Positions 3,001 through 39,641 of a stretch of DNA of 64,000 bases are shown here, piece by piece. Numbering within the stretch: the stretch's first letter is position 1; the number at the start of each line of letters is the position of its first letter. The DNA comes from Lanius collurio (Eukaryota > Chordata > Aves > Passeriformes > Laniidae). The DNA lies in contig JACBWW010000003.1 of NCBI GenBank assembly GCA_020086605.1, positions 4,439,260 through 4,503,259 on the forward strand, read 5' to 3'. The notes under the pieces are model-generated. The model was given only the letters and a program-made list of their open reading frames with translations. It was not told the DNA's origin and made no database searches. The position numbers and the translations under genes are program-made.

Positions 3001-3636
3001 CATGCAGTTTTCTGAGATGGTGGCATACACATCACAGTGTTTTGGTTGTGCAATTGCAATTGTTCTCCTTTAACCTATATGCTCCACAGCAACTTCACAG
3101 TTGCAGCATCTAACTGCATACCTGGAGAAATGGAGACTCTTCAGTAAAGTGTTGGTGAAATTTGTTCTCTGGAAAAGTCAACACTTTTTAGAGTTCACAG
3201 TTTTTATCCCACATATTCCCCTCAAAAGCTTTGTGGAAACAAATGAAGCCATCTTGGTAAATAAAGAGGACTAGAGTTTCCAAAATCTGATTCTATCATG
3301 TCTTCCCTCTGACATTATTAAGGTGCTACAAGAATATGGAGATGTCATAAAGTAATTCTCAAGTTGATTCCTGCGAATCTCTGTTCTTCCTCAAACCTGA
3401 AGTGCCACTTCATTTGACGGTATCTACATCAAACTCAAGACTATTCAACTACTTTACCTCTGGCGAATTGTCCTGAAGAATGAGTGTGGATCTATGAAGC
3501 AGCCTGTGCCTCCAGTCATCAGTGCATATCTTGGAATTTTAGTCAGGACTTTTGTTTACAGCCATAGTGAGAGAGGTATATAAGTTGCTTAAGCCAGGGT
3601 CCCAAATGACAAAGTATCTTGTCTTTCACAGCAGTG
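1..3636. other. Unique AT-rich sequence, no gene seen
   Basis: No coding region, RNA gene or recognisable transposon is visible. Open frames here are short and have no family resemblance. The only structure is a 16-base A run (174-189), a 22-bp tandem duplication near 571-630 and a pyrimidine-rich tract near 1220-1268. The stretch ends at the target duplication of the provirus. Confidence 0.6.
571..630. repeat. 22-bp tandem duplication
   Basis: A 22-bp unit (core TAGAGATGTTATTAT) occurs at 579-600 and 601-622, differing at one base (GTAATTA versus GCAATTA). Partial units GTAATTA(T/C) flank both ends. This is a small minisatellite-like local duplication. Confidence 0.8.
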
Positions 3637-3642
3637 CAGAGC
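3637..3642. repeat. Target-site duplication, left copy (CAGAGC)
   Basis: CAGAGC directly abuts the outer end of the LTR at 3643. The identical hexamer abuts the outer end of the other LTR at 5956-5961. Six-base duplications are typical of alpha- and betaretrovirus-like integrases. The match shows that everything between entered as one integration. Confidence 0.85.
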
Positions 3643-3933
3643 TTTTGTAGTGCGGAATCCTTTACAACATGTATAAGATAGCAATGAACTTGGAAGGAAA
3701 GATGAAGCGATATTTCTGTAGATGTTCAGGGATGATTTATTCCTCCAGCTGCATGGCTGGAGTTCCCAGGCAGACCCCAGTCATGGGACCCTGCTCCCTT
3801 CCCAGGCCCCTGGCACACAAACCACCCAATTAGGAACAGGTATGGGGCACACGTGACATGGGGACAGGGACAGAGGCAGACCCATACCCTGCAGGGTCCC
3901 TCCCCCAGGATTTCAGGGGAAGGCACCTTCACA
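3643..3933 (-). repeat. 3' LTR of the Y-box provirus
   Basis: This 291-bp LTR reads on the minus strand. It begins TGTGAAGGTGCC at 3933 and ends CACTACAAAA at 3643, where the usual terminal CA has mutated to AA. It contains an AATAAA polyadenylation signal (complement of 3736-3741), a CACGTG E-box and a CCCTGCAGGG palindrome. It aligns along its full length with 5663-5955 and, in opposite orientation, with 37354-37650. By hand I count roughly 14-16 substitutions plus a few short indels against the 5' LTR, about 5 percent divergence. Confidence 0.9.
3736..3741 (-). terminator. LTR polyadenylation signal (AATAAA)
   Basis: TTTATT on the plus strand is AATAAA in the provirus sense. The hexamer is conserved in all three LTR copies of the window and marks the R region. 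In the 3' LTR it would have specified 3'-end formation of proviral transcripts. Confidence 0.7.
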
Positions 3934-4149
3934 ATTCAACCTTTCTTTTTAAATAAAATGACATTAGAAACAGTTGGATAAACAACAAAACAATCTCAAA
4001 GGAAAGGAAGCCACTATCTTGAGTCCCCAGATGTCCAAACAGATTTTCTTTGGAGCATCAGAAGGGAGACAGGACTTGAGCACGCTTCAGATAGAAACTG
4101 AGGAAGAAATTTTCCTTTTTGTACCTGTTGGAATCTTAGAAAATTATGG
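3934..4149 (-). other. Proviral 3' internal segment, possible env tail or 3' UTR
   Basis: This lies between the stop of the Y-box frame and the 3' LTR. The last ~60 bases before the LTR contain a short open stretch encoding a hydrophobic run followed by Lys-Arg-Lys, with a stop just inside the LTR. That would suit the membrane anchor and tail of an env remnant, but it is too short to prove. The rest could be the 3' UTR of the captured Y-box mRNA. No poly-A tail is present, which argues against a LINE-mediated processed pseudogene. Confidence 0.4.
3939..3950 (-). promoter_or_regulatory. Candidate polypurine tract
   Basis: In provirus sense the bases read AAAAAGAAAGG, five or six bases before the 3' LTR start. 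Purine tracts just upstream of the 3' LTR prime plus-strand DNA synthesis in retroviruses. The tract is short and slightly offset from the LTR edge, so the assignment is tentative. Confidence 0.45.
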
Positions 4150-4948
4150 TTAATTTCTTCCCTCCCTCCTTTTCATCGCCCCCATTGGCAATGCAAAGGG
4201 ATTAATGGCATATGAAAAGGACTGGTTTTGTGAGGGGAACCAGAAAGAGAAGTTTGGGCTGGGCATGTATGGGGGAAAAGGGACATGGGATAAAAGGGGA
4301 ATTGTGGGATAGGGGAAAGGATAGGGATTATGGGGATATTGTGTAGCATATCTACTGCCTTTCACAGGGACACCCCCAGGGCCTGTAACACATGCGGCCT
4401 GTGGGCCCTTCCTTCCTTGCACAATTTTAAATTCTACTCTTTCTCCTTCTTCTAAGCTTGGAACCTCACTTTTGGGGTTATTTTTCACAGTAGTAGATTT
4501 ATGGACAAAACTACTTTCTCCAGTATCGTTTTTCAATAAGAAACCGTAATTTTTCTTTATACCATTTTACATTTCCAAAAACCCTAGCTGCGATAACCTT
4601 TTCATTTTTCCAAGTTACTTCATTCTTGCTTTCACTTACAGCTTTTCTCGCTCTTGTGCTGGAGTTCTGCGTGACTGCTCCACGCTTTCCGGGCTTTCAC
4701 GCGGCTGCTTGGCCGCGCCCTGTGAGGTGTTCTGTTCCAGCATGCGTGCACTGCTTTGAACCACCGCCACTGCCGCCACTGCTGCTGCTGTCGGCTGTGT
4801 GGCTGACGGGCATTAGTGCGGTTCCCTTCTTGCCCCCACGCCGCTCCGGCTCGGCTTGGCGTGGCTCACCGTGGTCGCCATAGCGACCGCCACACTCACC
4901 ACTGCCTTTCTCTCCACGGGGCTCAGACCATCGCTCGCCACGTGGCAC
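4150..4948 (-). pseudogene. Captured Y-box (YBX family) cold-shock-domain gene, broken
   Basis: Y-box proteins bind single-stranded DNA and mRNA through a cold-shock domain and control translation and transcription. Reading on the minus strand, the first part (4948 to about 4559) has a Ser/Gly-rich stretch (SSSSGGSGGGS), then Lys/Arg-rich sequence, then the domain start KVIAARVFGNVKWY. An in-frame TGA at 4697-4699 interrupts this part. A frameshift falls in an A-rich run at about 4549-4558. The second frame (to the stop at 4150, about 130 codons) continues with YGFLL (RNP1-like), SFVHK (RNP2-like), NNP, GERVEF and VTGPGGVPVKGSRYA, the signature end of a YBX cold-shock domain. The domain is continuous, whereas vertebrate YBX genes split it over several exons, so this is a spliced-RNA-derived copy. 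The tail after the domain (~65 residues) is rich in Pro, Tyr and Phe rather than alternating basic and acidic islands. I cannot tell which YBX paralogue was the source. Confidence 0.85.
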
Positions 4949-5262
4949 AGGGCGGCCATCGCCAGGTCACGCCTCGGCCGCCACTGCCCTCACCACTGCC
5001 TCAGGGCAAACACCGCCAGGCCCGCACTGTCGCGTCATTCGTGGCTCCACTCCCGCTGCCACCGTTCTCGCTGCTGCCCCCGTTCCCGCCGTGCCTGGCC
5101 TCACTGGCTCTCCCATGCGCAGGAGCTCCCTCACCGCCGCCCGCAATGCACTGGGCGCCCGCAGCCAGGGCTGGGCAGTGTCCGGCGTGATGAAGGAGCC
5201 CGCTGCAAGGCGCGCGCTGCTTGACCACGTGTTCGCTGCTGAAACAGCAGCGGGACACGGCC
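4949..5262 (-). other. GC-rich block upstream of the Y-box frame
   Basis: A CpG-rich segment, sharply different from its AT-rich surroundings, runs from about 5262 to 4640. On the minus strand its open frame (5001-5258) is rich in Gly, Ala, Ser and Arg. The first exon and 5' UTR of vertebrate YBX genes are GC-rich, so this is probably the 5' part of the same captured mRNA. The plus-strand frames over the same bases are shadows. The junction with the gag-like fragment is near 5262-5283. Confidence 0.55.
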
Positions 5263-5280
5263 GATATTGCTCAGCAGTCT

Positions 5281-5555
5281 CTAAATCAGGTAATATTCAT
5301 GGAAATAGTGCTGTATTGGCACGTTTTTTGATTCGGAAATTAACTGTGTCCAAACATTCTTCCAAAAGTCCTTGGTAAGAATCAAATCCCAAGGAACATA
5401 GAAGTTTTTAAACAGCCATGCCAAAAAGTTAGTTCTTTCTGAGTTTGAATTAATCTAAAATCTACATATTGCTGTTCCAGAACCTTTTTAAGTTTAAGGT
5501 AAATGTCTCTTTGTGGTTCGAACAGCCATGAGTTCTTCCATGGGTCCTGCATCAT
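5281..5555 (-). pseudogene. Gag-like fragment of the provirus
   Basis: It starts with tandem ATG codons (5550-5555, minus strand), about 90 bases past the primer-binding site, where a retroviral gag would begin. The first frame runs to a stop at 5382-5384. A second frame, open from about 5396 to a stop at 5281-5283, continues in the same style, so a frameshift separates them. The translated pieces are rich in Trp, Leu, Lys and Gln, as in retroviral matrix regions. Identity rests on position and composition, not on a recognised motif. The remainder of gag and all of pol are absent. Confidence 0.5.
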
Positions 5556-5603
5556 TCAGAGATGGGACAGCAAAACAAAAACAAGAAGAGATATCCAGAG
5601 TTT

Positions 5604-5609
5604 ACTTAC
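5604..5609 (-). promoter_or_regulatory. Candidate retroviral 5' splice donor (GTAAGT)
   Basis: The complement of ACTTAC is a consensus donor GTAAGT. It lies in the leader between the primer-binding site and the gag-like start, the usual place for the donor of subgenomic mRNAs. The homologous leader after the LTR at 37354-37650 reads GAGTAACT here, so the site is not clearly conserved. Confidence 0.4.
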
Positions 5610-5641
5610 GAATCACCAAATTATCTTCTCCAGGGATCATT

Positions 5642-5660
5642 TGCCAGTATTTCTCTGCCA
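5642..5660 (-). promoter_or_regulatory. Decayed primer-binding site
   Basis: Two bases after the LTR end, the minus strand reads TGGCAGAGAAATACTGGCA. It aligns with the intact site TGGTGGAGAATGCGGGCA at 37653-37670, with a few substitutions (some at a CpG) and one inserted base. The flanking leader (GATCCCTGGAGAAGATAATT) is shared by both elements, which confirms homology. Confidence 0.7.
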
Positions 5661-5662
5661 TT

Positions 5663-5955
5663 TGTTGTAGTGTGGAATCCTTTACAACATGTGTAAGATA
5701 GCAACGAACTTGGAAGGAAAGATGAAGCGATATTTCTGTAGATGTTCAGGGATGATTTATTCCTCCAGCCGCATGGCTGGAGTTCCCAGGCAGACTCCAG
5801 TCACAGGACTCTGCTCTCTTCCCAGGCCCAGGCACACCCCAAACCAACCAGTCAGGAACAGGTATGGGGCACACGTGACATGGGGACAGGGACAGAGGCA
5901 GACCCATACCCTGCAGGGTCCCTCCCCCAGGATTTCAGGGGAAGGCACCTCCACA
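5663..5955 (-). repeat. 5' LTR of the Y-box provirus
   Basis: This 293-bp LTR reads TGTGGAGGTGCC (5955) to CACTACAACA (5663) on the minus strand, with the canonical TG...CA ends. AATAAA is the complement of 5756-5761 and is the likely R-region polyadenylation signal. The overlapping AATAAAT could also serve as a weak TATA-like element, because no separate TATA box is obvious. A CACGTG E-box lies in U3. Confidence 0.9.
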
Positions 5956-5961
5956 CAGAGC
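5956..5961. repeat. Target-site duplication, right copy (CAGAGC)
   Basis: Identical to 3637-3642 and directly adjacent to the TG end of the 5' LTR. It closes the integration unit. Confidence 0.85.
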
Positions 5962-8900
5962 ACTTTCTCTAAAGCAACTTCCCTTAACTTAAGCAACATC
6001 TTATGCTACCCTGGCTTATTCATATAAAGCCATTTACTCTTCTCAAAGGACACACTGGCGCATCAGAAAAACAGCCGCTGAAGATTTTTCTTGGTCCTCT
6101 CTGGGCAAACAGTCACACAGGGTGTGGGTCTTTTACTTACTGGGCTGTTTTACAGCTGTAGACTCTGTTCCTTCAAGGCATTTTGAGGCACCTTTAGAAG
6201 GGTCTGTGATCGATTTTTCATTAACTGAGCTTTCACAATAATGACTTTTCTCTTGACCTCCTAATTCAGTACAGCCTGTAAACAGCTTTTCCAGACATCT
6301 TTTCCAGCTGGATATTTGTGGTTTAAGACATTTCAGCAAGCACACTGCCATAGTCCTTTTTTCATAAGAGTTTTATTAATATGAAGACCTTCTGAAACCA
6401 AAATTCTAGTTTTAATTACTTGAAGAGAAACTTTATGCCCTAATTAAAGGCATCTTTAATAGCAGATGTGCTTTCCCTGTTCCAATAAGGATATTTAACT
6501 ATAACAAAGGAAAGCAATAGCTCCATAAATGTCCCATTCTATGATGTTTTCAGGCAACCACCTTTAGGACAGCAACCATGACAATATCAAGCAAGCTAAA
6601 AAAATCACTTCCCACATATGGTGTCAGTGTCCTGAGGCCTTCCCACACCCTGACTTATGCTCAAGTTTTTCCTGGCAGCTTTGAACAAGAGGCTGGAAGA
6701 TGAAAGCAAGCAGTCACTATTTCTAAAAAAGAAAAAATGTATATCAACATCTGTATCTGAGCAACATAAGCAACAGAGCTCCACAAAGCAGCTATTAAGC
6801 CAAAGGACACTCTGCTGTTTCCTAGTCAATGATCATTGACAATGGATTTTCTCTGTTCACCTAATTTATTTTTTTTTTAAGAAAAGTTGGATGTTAATCA
6901 TGTTCTCAAAAAAAGTGTTCTCCCACCCCTCGTTAACACCTGTTAATGAGATGCATGTTTCAATATTAGATTTGCTCTGCCAATTTCATCAGGGCTCTGC
7001 TTTCCCATGACAAAACTCGAATATGTACCAGATGAACACTAAAACACTACTATTTTTTTCTTTTTTTTTTTTTTTTTTTTAATTGGCTTCAAAACATTCT
7101 GTTGTGCCAATTAATAAAGTACACTAGAAAGAATCAAAATAGCATCTTTCTTCACACCACTTGTATGGCACATATGCAGACTGCTGCAGATCTTTTCTTC
7201 CTTACTTGGGTATACTTTGGATGGGATGCTGATTTCTAAGAGATATTTTTTTTCAGACCTTCTCAGACTGAATTGAATATAAAGGCCCAAGGCCCTCAAA
7301 TTATCCAAGCAGTTCATGTCTTTGGAAGAAACACAGTACAGAATTAAGGTACAGTTTACTCAGGAAGAGAATAGTGGCTGTGTTTCACAGGAAACTCTGC
7401 TTCAGTAAATTTTATTTCATATGCCAAGGTTCACTCTGTGTGGAATATGGCAGTTGATCTGCAGAATGGGATAGAAAGTAGAGAAGATCCAGCAAAGCAA
7501 ATTTTTTGTTTCAAAACTGTTTGATTTTGAGAAGGATATAAAGAGTGTCAGATCACTTTTTTACAGATCAATGGTTCAGAAAAAAAATTTATCTAACATT
7601 TCTGAGCATCCTCATTCAGACTCCACTATCAGAGACATTAATTCTTGAATTTTATTGACATTTTAGGTGTGCAGATAGATGAATGGATGTTTTCTGACTT
7701 TGGAAGTGCAACCCCTGTATACCAGAAAGCCCAGATTTTCATTGCACTTTTCTGAGTGGCCCTAGAAATTGTTACATAGTTTTCTTAATCCTCTCCTTAC
7801 ATTTCTGTTTCAAAGTCTGCAAGATGGTTTCAGTGAGACAATTTCAGGGATCAAACACCTCTCAGTATGAATGTGGAATCACCAGAATTATGTTAAGTGT
7901 GAAGGTAAATAAGATCCTATATTATACTACATAACAAAATGTTGACAATAAGTCTACATAAGAAAAATCCCAATATTTGTGAAATCATATATTTTCCTAA
8001 ATATAAACATGCTTTCACATTAATATCCAGAAAAAAAGATCATTTTGGTATTTTTAAAGCTATCAAGTGATGCCACATCTTTTTATAAGAAATCAAAACT
8101 GAAGATAAATATTATGCTTATTATTTACTTCCTGAGAGGAATAAAGCTCACGCAGATTTGAAAATAGTTTGATAAAGATAAGGAAAATAAATACTAGCTT
8201 TTTTTAACTGACTTTTTAGCAAATAAAATTGCATGCCTTTTATATGAGATATGACTGGATAAAATTGCTCCAGGCTTAAGTATTATTGTCATTTGAGAAA
8301 GCAAACAATAGAAACCTACTTTCAGTAAGTTGTGAGCCTGCAGTTGTTTCAATGATGTAACCATACCTTCGATATTCATGAGTGAAGATAAGCACAGAAC
8401 ATTCCTAATCCTTCAGTGAAAAATACAAATCACAGTCTCCCTCCTTGTTTATGTTCATCCCTGCACAAACACAGACAGCTACTCTACAACTGAAGGAAGT
8501 ACAGTCAATTGTCTTGTTATGCTCCTTTTGCATTACAGATGCATTAGAGCTCTGCTTAGATTTCATAATTGAGTTATAGCAATCATCCACATATTAGATT
8601 CTAGGCTGAGCTTTGGCAAGACTAAATAATATAAATAAATTATTGCTTACCTACAGAATTCCTTTGCTTGGGAGGTAAAGCATATCTATCAGAAAAGCTG
8701 TTGGTTTTTTTCCTCAGGCCTATTCAATAAATAAACGTTACACCAGGATTCTTACACAGAGTATCTTTGAAATGGGTTTTGTATTGATTTTTATAACTAC
8801 CCTGTTAGATGACGTTATCCCTTAGTGTGTCATGTTTAGATGGGTCCGCCCGGAGCAGGTCACTGAGGTGATAACTGTCATTTGGAGGGACAGAAAAGCA

Positions 8901-37347: not shown

Positions 37348-37353
37348 AATACT
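37348..37353. repeat. Target-site duplication, left (AATACT)
   Basis: It directly precedes the LTR start. The matching copy AATACC follows the second LTR end at 37739-37744, with one mismatch in six. Confidence 0.7.
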
Positions 37354-37650
37354 TGTGGAGGTGCCTTCCCCTGAAATCCTGGCAGGAGGGACCCTGCAGG
37401 GTACGGGTCTGCCTCTGTCCCTGTCCCCATGTCACCTGTGCCCCATACCTGTTCCTGGTTGGGTGGTTTGGGGTGTGCCTGGGCCCGGGAAGAGAGCAGG
37501 GTCCCAGGACGGAAGTCGGCCTGGGAACTCCAGCCATGCGGCTGGAGGAATAAAATAATCCCTGAACATCTACAGAAATATTGCTTCATCTTTCCTTCCA
37601 AGTCCATCACTGTCTTATATATCGTTGTAAGGATTCCCCGCACTACAACA
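37354..37650 (+). repeat. LTR (297 bp), third family copy
   Basis: It begins TGTGGAGGTGCC and ends CACTACAACA. AATAAA is at 37549-37554. The copy differs from the two at 3.6-6.0 kb by what looks like 7-9 percent on a hand alignment. The E-box CACGTG of the other copies reads CAGGTG here. Confidence 0.9.
37549..37554 (+). terminator. LTR polyadenylation signal (AATAAA)
   Basis: Conserved in position in all three LTRs, about 100 bases before the LTR end. It marks the R region. Confidence 0.65.
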
Positions 37651-37652
37651 AA

Positions 37653-37670
37653 TGGTGGAGAATGCGGGCA
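37653..37670 (+). promoter_or_regulatory. Primer-binding site, apparent tRNA-Ala(AGC) type
   Basis: TGGTGGAGAATGCGGGCA lies two bases after the LTR end, the expected place. It is the exact complement of the 3' end (acceptor plus CCA) of a vertebrate tRNA-Ala(AGC) variant as I remember that tRNA. The similarity continues with CGATCC, like the tRNA T-arm complement. The tRNA match should be confirmed against a tRNA set. Confidence 0.7.
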
Positions 37671-39641
37671 AACGATCCCTGGAGAAGATAATTCATGAGT
37701 AACTCTCGATACCTCTTCTTACTCCCCACACTACAACAAATACCCGAAGCACAGGTGCAAGGAGGAGGCATCCAGGTTCTTCAGTGAAGCTCAGTTACAG
37801 GACCAGAGGCAACAGGTACAAACAGAAACACAGGAGGCTCTGCCTCTGAGGGTGACCGACCATTGGCACAGGCTGCCCAGGGAGGTTACAGAGTCTCCAT
37901 TCTTAGAGATATTCAAAAGCAGTCTGGACATGTCCCTAAATGAGCTGATGGGTTGGACTGGATGGCATCCAATTTCAGCTGTCCTGTGGTACTGTGAAAT
38001 CGAGTCTGAACTTCAAGTCAGAATTATGGATATGTAATAAAAAACAATCATTGTATGAACCTCTTCTGGACACACCCAGGAGGCCATCAGGACATAACAC
38101 AGGATACTTCACTGCCTTACTTTCCCCTCCCCTGAGGACTTTTCCTTACAAGGTTATGTGCTCATTCAGTGTTCCACTGAGTTCATATTTTTTAATGTTC
38201 TTAACAAATGGTCTTTGCATCCCGAAGACTTCTGTCCATTTTAGAAGGATGTCCCTTCCAAGTTCTCCAGCTCATTAACACCCAGCATTCATAATTTCAC
38301 TTCCTGAAAGCATTCTCCCTGAAGGCTGATTTATGATGAGAGTGTTCTTCAAGTTCTTCTCTTCAATGATTGAGGTTCCATGTTTATGGAAGGAAAAAAA
38401 TCTTTTGAGAGTCTCAGGGCACTGATATCTTGCATCTCAGCAAATTGCCGTGGGGTAGAGCACTCTGGTGTTATCTGTTAATACCAGAAGGTGCAGTCTT
38501 AAAGATTTTTATGTTAAGATGCAAAACAGTGGCACTCGGTGACTCCAGCTCCTTAAGGAGAAAGAATATTTTTGTATTGAGTCTGTTCCATTCCTGTATT
38601 CATCAAGTCACATTGCTGAGCAAGAACAGATCAGTTAATTTTTTGGCCCAGCTTGCTGCATAGCCGTATTAATTGGAATTTTCCATGAAGGATTTATAGG
38701 GCACAGTTAAAATGAAATGTACTTGCTAACACCTCTGCAGAGGAGGTTATTATAGAAAATAGATGAGAAGTAACTGGGTTTCCTTTAGAAAACAAATGTA
38801 AATGTATACTCTGTACATTGCAAACCAGATAACATACATTGTTCAGAGTATAAATTACACAGGAAAAAAAATAAGGTGAAGACAAGATAAAGATCTTAAA
38901 TCCAAAAACTTCCAGTTGTCTTTTGCAGAAAAATAATAATGCAAAATATTTTTCTGCTTGTTTTTTCCCCCCACAAACCAGCTATCTCTCAGCCACCGGG
39001 TGGTAAAGTTTCACTCTAAATAAACCATTGATAGTATGGAAAAACAGCTGAAAAAAACCCCAAATGACAGTCAGTTCTGAGTGTCAATCTACACATTTAA
39101 TGAGAAACTCTGCTCGATTTAATGAATCCTGGTGCTTCAGTCTACCATCACTTTAAGTAGAGCCTGCATACACAACTATGTAGTGTCAATTTGGGGTGTA
39201 TATTGTGGCAGTACAATACACCTCTGAAGGCAGAACTTCATTTTCTGAACTACTAACCATATAAACAGTTGTTACTAATTTACTGTGAGAAACGTGTGTG
39301 AAAATGTATGTGCACATGATTGGCTTGTTGAGACAGCTTGAAAATGTTTAATCAAGGCTGAATAATTCTGTGTCTACAGTAGCAGTTAGATTAAAAACAA
39401 TCAAAAGAAAAAATAATACTATCACTTCACCAGCGTGTCAGGGGTGAAAGTCTAATTGGATTGTAGTTGAACATAAACTAACTTCACTGTGAAATGAGCA
39501 GTTGAAATCTGGGGGGGAGGGTCATTATTTGGAGCTTGACCTCTGAATCCTAAGTCTGATAAAACCTGAAAAGAAGGACCCTTCTTTGGAAAGTGTATTC
39601 CATATGCGTGAGGTGGGGGAAAGTGGGAGGTAGAGAAAGAC

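Follow-up and report, generated by a model that had tools for sequence, protein, structure and literature searches.

Our analyses of a 64,000-nucleotide stretch of the genome of Lanius collurio (GenBank assembly GCA_020086605.1, contig JACBWW010000003.1, positions 4,439,260 to 4,503,259 of the forward strand; this whole stretch is referred to below as the window) concern a 2,313-bp element that is flanked by long terminal repeats (LTRs) and lies on the minus strand, at 5955–3643, between two CAGAGC duplications. In our interpretation, which we hold with good confidence, this segment is a decayed member of a non-autonomous, ERVK-like and probably songbird family of ~2.3-kb elements, whose single gene joins a helical domain at the position of gag, a GC-rich linker and a Y-box cold-shock domain (CSD), and whose protein is proposed to bind the RNA that encodes it. 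The observations on which it is based are the LTRs, the 6-bp duplications, the amplification of the element, the architecture common to its copies, the constraint on the N-terminus and the CSD, and the retention of the residues that contact RNA. A first-pass annotation, made by a model from the letters of the sequence alone, had described the segment as a germline provirus that had captured a host Y-box gene. The uptake of a Y-box coding sequence by a retroviral-type LTR element is upheld by the same architecture across loci; the idea of a single provirus has to be given up, the window copy being one decayed representative of a large family.

A large family of LTR elements with a common architecture

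Family searches were run on the 1.097-Gb genome of L. collurio itself, and the counts of first-look candidates that they provide are mostly unscored. The search with the CSD gave 1,213 such candidates, and the 150 that were scored are all above the Pfam cut-off (150/150). The corresponding numbers are 1,267 for the N-terminal domain (150 scored), 1,008 for the 3' untranslated stretch of the copy at locus L023 (40 scored) and 3,322 for the LTR (40 scored), the last being the genome-wide search for the LTR family that the first-pass annotation had suggested. From these unscored first-look candidates we estimate that the family comprises ~1,000 copies.

Twenty loci were chosen from the CSD list, mostly for their long frames. 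Matches to the family LTR are present at all 20 of them, an LTR pair could be measured at 18 (the exceptions being L026 and L033), and a single frame of 504–509 codons is found in 13. Divergence within the LTR pairs ranges from 0 substitutions and one gap (L028) up to 0.12, and hence the family has been active both recently and over a long time. A target duplication of 6 bp is a mark of ERVK-type elements, and exact flanking 6-bp duplications are present in 17 of 19 family elements (window copy counted; L020 and L036 are the exceptions), 14 of these 17 also having TG..CA ends. When flanks were re-paired as a control, the mean number of exact 6-mers was 2.6 with any ends, and 0.05 (at most 1) with TG..CA ends; because these numbers are far smaller, the duplications are not due to chance.

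The CSD is an integral part of the family. Twelve loci were chosen among the first 34 entries of the N-terminus list because they had not been seen in the CSD list. A CSD lies downstream of the N-terminus in every one (its match falling in two frames in 4 of them), and the order N-terminus, linker and CSD is common to all; the check on junctions in other copies that had been proposed earlier thus comes out in favor of the first-pass annotation. A sample picked by LTR consists of 8 loci, two further picks having been the window's own LTRs: 5 of the 8 carry a CSD, L015 carries the internal part of another subfamily, and L012 and L013 have none within 1.5 kb, L013 resembling a solo LTR with matching flanks. 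The 3' untranslated stretch served to pick another sample of 40 places, which were judged by eye: the CSD lies just upstream in 25 and the N-terminus alone in 3, and the remaining 12 fall outside both the CSD and the N-terminus list, which is no sign of absence, these lists being capped. In intact copies the CSD is contiguous, in one frame between the LTRs, as a host-derived intronless coding sequence. The segment, being intronless and GC-rich, could in these respects be a processed pseudogene that was inserted secondarily in one provirus of a family itself lacking the Y-box. We reject this explanation, whose probability is next to nil, because other copies share the N-terminus/linker/CSD order, with the CSD at the same place in 12/12 of the N-terminus-picked loci, and the same fusion occurs in corvid proteins.

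Domains, constraint and proposed role of the encoded protein

The assignment of the window segment to the YBX type of CSD in the first-pass annotation is well supported by intact sister copies: in 7 scanned proteins the domain matches PF00313 at 70–82 bits, compared with a cut-off of 27. For the protein of locus L036 and a jay protein, P0006, the best PDB matches are YBX2 and YB-1 (YBX1), identity to human YBX2 being 66% for L036 and 73% for P0006 (Foldseek), and the stretch PVKGSRYAPNR is common to L036 and human YBX2 save for one residue. The RNA-contact residues of YB-1 are given in the available text of two papers as W65, F74, F85 and H87 (PMC9928419, PMC6451097). They are kept in 42/45, 49/49, 48/49 and 45/49 aligned rows, respectively, three of these rows representing the window copy and two a single locus. 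Besides this likeness to the vertebrate YBX2 and YBX1 domains in identity and in the retained aromatic contact residues, there are differences: a GRKGPQA-like stretch stands where YBX2 and YBX1 have GEKGAEA, the element CSD mostly reads WYNVK and not WFNVR, and the element protein, unlike YBX2 and YBX1, has an aromatic/proline tail past the CSD and is fused to the N-terminal domain.

The ratio of non-synonymous to synonymous substitution rates (dN/dS) was estimated over 13 intact copies as 0.257 for the N-terminus (bootstrap 0.124–0.507), 0.267 for the CSD (0.122–0.551; 0.236 with slightly different bounds) and 0.735 for the linker (0.564–0.980). The CSD value leans low, because these copies were chosen by CSD score; the N-terminus was no criterion. 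In 12 copies picked by the N-terminus, dN/dS is 0.158 for the N-terminus and 0.725, with 2 stops, for the tail. A comparison of seven diverged copies in 21 pairs gives CSD values of 0.164–0.492; two of these copies belong to one subfamily, and every one except L023 comes from the best CSD scores. The N-terminus and the CSD evolve under constraint, and the linker barely so.

As to the mechanism, the Y-box CSD was probably taken up once, as mRNA, and then passed on to the subfamilies. Reverse transcriptase and integrase would be supplied by a helper endogenous retrovirus (ERV). These enzymes presumably act in trans, because one long frame takes up 1.5 of the 1.8 kb of the internal part of L023, and because no pol or env domain was found in the scanned frames of family proteins, a result behind which stands no genome-wide look for a pol-bearing partner. 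By analogy with C-terminally shortened YB-1, which coats mRNA in a somewhat comparable way, the fusion protein would bind its own RNA by means of the CSD, and such binding may aid RNA stability, translation or entry into helper particles. The most likely beneficiary of the protein is the RNA from which it is translated, because a protein useless in cis should not stay under constraint in a non-autonomous element.

Several points weigh against this interpretation. According to the available text of PMC6451097, filament formation needs basic residues clustered past the CSD, the domain by itself not forming a filament; no cluster of this kind is visible by eye in the element tail, and the analogy with a filament is weaker for it. 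The tail is also weakly constrained, with a dN/dS of 0.624 in the 13 intact copies and an interval (0.288–1.554) that reaches above 1, and the CSD in the 12 N-terminus-picked copies has a dN/dS of 0.421 with 1 stop. Furthermore, all of the copies compared were chosen for intact frames or for high domain scores, and the N-terminal domain has no match in Pfam, in PDB sequences (no useful E-value) or in a PDB profile search.

We therefore label this domain gag-position, and not Gag, by its position only. Of the gag-like start that had been noted earlier, the place directly after the leader stands, and a likeness to known Gag families does not, given the lack of a Pfam or PDB sequence match. It is conceivable, although in our judgement rather unlikely, that the domain is another host-derived or a new helical domain, in which case there would be no gag fusion at all; the missing matches would agree with this, and the fold searches, in whose best 50 rows each only CSD matches or low-scoring rows occur, hardly probed the N-terminal part. 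On the other side, the domain has the start expected of gag, ~90 nt (L023) to 110 nt (window copy) past the 5' LTR, and an AlphaFold2 (AF2) model predicts, with moderate confidence, five helices in it, as a matrix domain would also show. The predicted local distance difference test (pLDDT) score of the model is 52–79 by block for residues 1–90 and 39 for residues 91–100, the model being poor overall (mean pLDDT 41).

Two further alternatives concern what the protein does. It could be a passenger in an element that spreads by its LTRs and leader alone, with open frames that reflect nothing but youth; many broken copies, including that of the window, have after all integrated normally. Such a history is improbable, since within the same frames dN/dS is ~0.26 for the N-terminus and the CSD but 0.74 for the linker, and the CSD is also constrained among diverged copies. 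The other alternative, which deserves to be taken seriously even if we consider it on the unlikely side, is that the fusion acts on the host (viz. on germ-cell translation, RNA decay or small-RNA silencing) and not on its own RNA, the Y-box part competing with host YBX proteins. YBX2 is germ-cell specific, and it is human YBX2 that provides the best PDB match of both P0006 and L036, the latter with the near-identical stretch mentioned above. A benefit to the element's own RNA, however, more readily accounts for constraint in an element mobilised in trans, and this is the role that we favor.

Corvid relatives and known cases of gene capture

The N-terminus, searched against a set of 5.77 billion proteins, returned 3 of them, all from Corvus moneduloides (New Caledonian crow) and all with a CSD, one of them representing 24 sequences. 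The C-terminal part returned 7, viz. 5 from crow, 1 from Aphelocoma coerulescens (Florida scrub-jay) and P0008, and a second N-terminal type returned the jay protein itself and one further crow protein. The proteins of New Caledonian crow and Florida scrub-jay are fused alike. The search reaches only proteins with shared exact words and similar length, and the absence of the fusion elsewhere means little, because no host YBX was returned either. Two of the C. moneduloides proteins, P0003 and P0007, combine N-terminal or linker parts of one subfamily with the CSD of another, as template switching would give; P0003 has the first N-terminal type together with a CSD of the second type, a combination that could be expected from recombination between subfamilies.

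The first-pass annotation had also proposed placing the captured copy in a YBX tree. A CSD tree of 28 rows (9 retrieved proteins, 16 genome rows and three YBX rows) fits a single capture and leaves the choice among YBX paralogues undecided, the tree being short, weakly supported in places and only midpoint-rooted. The motif G[RK][KR]G[PL]QA is present in 9/9 of the retrieved proteins, compared with GEKGAEA in the three YBX rows; the 16 genome rows also have it, but the choice of these rows had required the motif. W[YC]NVK in place of WFNVR is usual, though not universal, in the rows of the tree. With its diverged subfamilies and corvid relatives, the capture looks old. In the tree, P0008 (344 residues, from a 1.4-kb contig) is the protein whose CSD lies closest to host YBX; it has no gag-position domain, and is possibly an early branch.

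The available text of PMC7341801 describes an insertion in hooded crow, corCorLTRK1b, of 2.25 kb, assigned to ERVK and with an LTR of 296 nt, which lies upstream of NDP and is linked to plumage. Compared by this description and by primers, it resembles the window element in its ERVK assignment, in LTR length (296 vs 291/293 nt) and in size (2.25 vs 2.31 kb); the terms "open reading frame" and "gag" do not occur in the main text of that paper as available. The in-element primer P_L_R_2 translates as HPWFPS, which is residues 415–420 of the crow protein P0001 and is also found in P0004 and P0007, and in a shuffle control any six-residue match arose in 62/100,000 cases. Its nearest site among the studied loci is in L036, in the same coding region, with 3 mismatches and at 629 nt from the element end, compared with a published crow amplicon of 659 bp that includes flank. 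The second in-element primer, P_R_F_1, has no translated match, and at the DNA level window positions 3401–6200 contain no site with ≤5 mismatches to any of the four crow primers that were tried. Because an in-element primer reads as six residues of a crow Y-box protein, the NDP insertion is probably a relative of the family. A farther-reaching proposal, which we regard as doubtful and offer tentatively, is that the Y-box domain replaces the RNA-binding function of nucleocapsid, so that an RNA-coating protein of its own would give the element cis-preferential mobilisation by helpers, and that such elements, the hooded-crow NDP insertion included, have been spreading in the genomes of songbirds for millions of years.

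Host genes have been captured by other ERVs. According to the available text of PMC4299795, crocodilian ERVs captured KIT-ligand and nectin3, and purifying selection acts on the captured genes. The likeness to our case lies in the uptake of a host mRNA by an ERV lineage, in an open frame under purifying selection and in the presence in several species; in the crocodilian elements, however, KIT-ligand was gained without loss of ERV domains, nectin3 replaced env, and six insertions are shown (PMC4299795). The Y-box family differs in that the captured part has become fused with the sole protein of the element, in that neither a pol nor an env domain is seen, and in that its copies number hundreds to ~1,000. 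Fusions of gag and oncogenes in acute transforming retroviruses are a classical case, and these are usually single, recent, oncogene-carrying and in need of a helper. They share with the Y-box elements the LTRs, the leader, the start at the gag position, the replacement of viral genes by a captured host coding sequence and the presumed need for a helper, whereas the Y-box elements form a germ-line family with diversified and constrained Y-box subfamilies.

The first-pass annotation knew of no description of retroviral capture of a Y-box gene, and in agreement with this an ERV with a Y-box or cold-shock gene is reported neither among the papers listed by our literature searches, supplements having been beyond reach, nor in the available text of PMC6523648. 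Host-gene capture by ERVs is already known, and the fused and amplified Y-box form is new. Most known examples of gene capture by retroviruses are single oncogenic events or small groups of ERVs; here a very large family has the captured RNA-binding domain in its only gene and keeps it under constraint, and the benefit that a non-autonomous retroelement may draw from its own RNA-binding protein thereby becomes a directly testable question. In addition, a class of young insertions, with the crow-plumage one seemingly among them, would gain a coding identity, and some of the cold-shock proteins that are annotated as "uncharacterized" in songbirds, those retrieved here, are suggested to be products of a mobile element.

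The copy in the window

The exact 6-bp duplication, the two full LTRs, and the leader, gag-position start and Y-box segment that follow on the same strand had all been recognized in the first-pass annotation, and they are retained here (Table 1).

Table 1. Features of the Y-box element, and of a second copy of its family, in the window.
Feature	Position	Strand	Basis or remark
Target-site duplication CAGAGC, left copy	3637–3642	.	Exact match to 5956–5961
3' LTR, 291 nt	3643–3933	-	Direct repeat of 5663–5955
3' untranslated stretch; purine-rich run adjoining the 3' LTR is a putative polypurine tract (by eye)	3934–4152	-	Sequence
Aromatic/proline-rich C-terminal tail	4153–4341	-	Match to family
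Y-box CSD, frame change inside	4345–4600	-	PF00313 in intact sister copies
GC-rich linker, 2 stops in match	4640–5248	-	Match to family
Gag-position N-terminal domain, split over three frames	5249–5552	-	tblastn with L023 residues 2–105
Leader, ~110 nt	5553–5662	-	LTR end to start of N-terminal match at 5552; resembles leaders of other copies
Putative primer-binding site (TGG...), 2 nt past 5' LTR	5643–5660	-	By position
5' LTR, 293 nt	5663–5955	-	Direct repeat of 3643–3933; LTR family genome-wide
Target-site duplication CAGAGC, right copy	5956–5961	.	Exact match to 3637–3642
Second family copy, internally deleted: one LTR (37354–37650), ~73 nt leader, last ~15 nt of an LTR; flanks aatact/aatacc	37348–37744	+	

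The two LTRs are 93.8% identical over 292 aligned columns (Kimura two-parameter distance, K2P, 0.051), differing by 12 transitions and 2 transversions, and one of the two LTR ends is intact (CA). Slower songbird rates would make the copy several times older than the ~1.6 million years (My) that its LTR divergence gives. The latter figure is obtained with the rate of 0.0158 per site per My that appears in the available text of PMC7341801. The copy is dead, the frames of its N-terminal domain, linker and CSD being broken. Its 5' LTR is followed by AA and then by TGG..., the usual place of a primer-binding site, and in L028, a recent copy, TGGTGGAGAATGCGGGCA occupies the corresponding position past the LTR, TGG starting at +3 in both. 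This putative site may resemble that for tRNA-Ala. The leader of L023 is ~89 nt long, compared with ~110 nt in the window copy.

The LTR at 37354 was considered as belonging to a pol-bearing partner and was rejected, as it is part of an internally deleted remnant. At L026:7589–9775, ~2 kb beyond a family copy, there is an open frame of 729 codons that appears by eye to be like an ERV polymerase; no link to the family is shown. At L019:4079–8045, an element at 4272–6599 with the duplication CCCTTC appears to be nested in an older copy, which has matches on either side of it.

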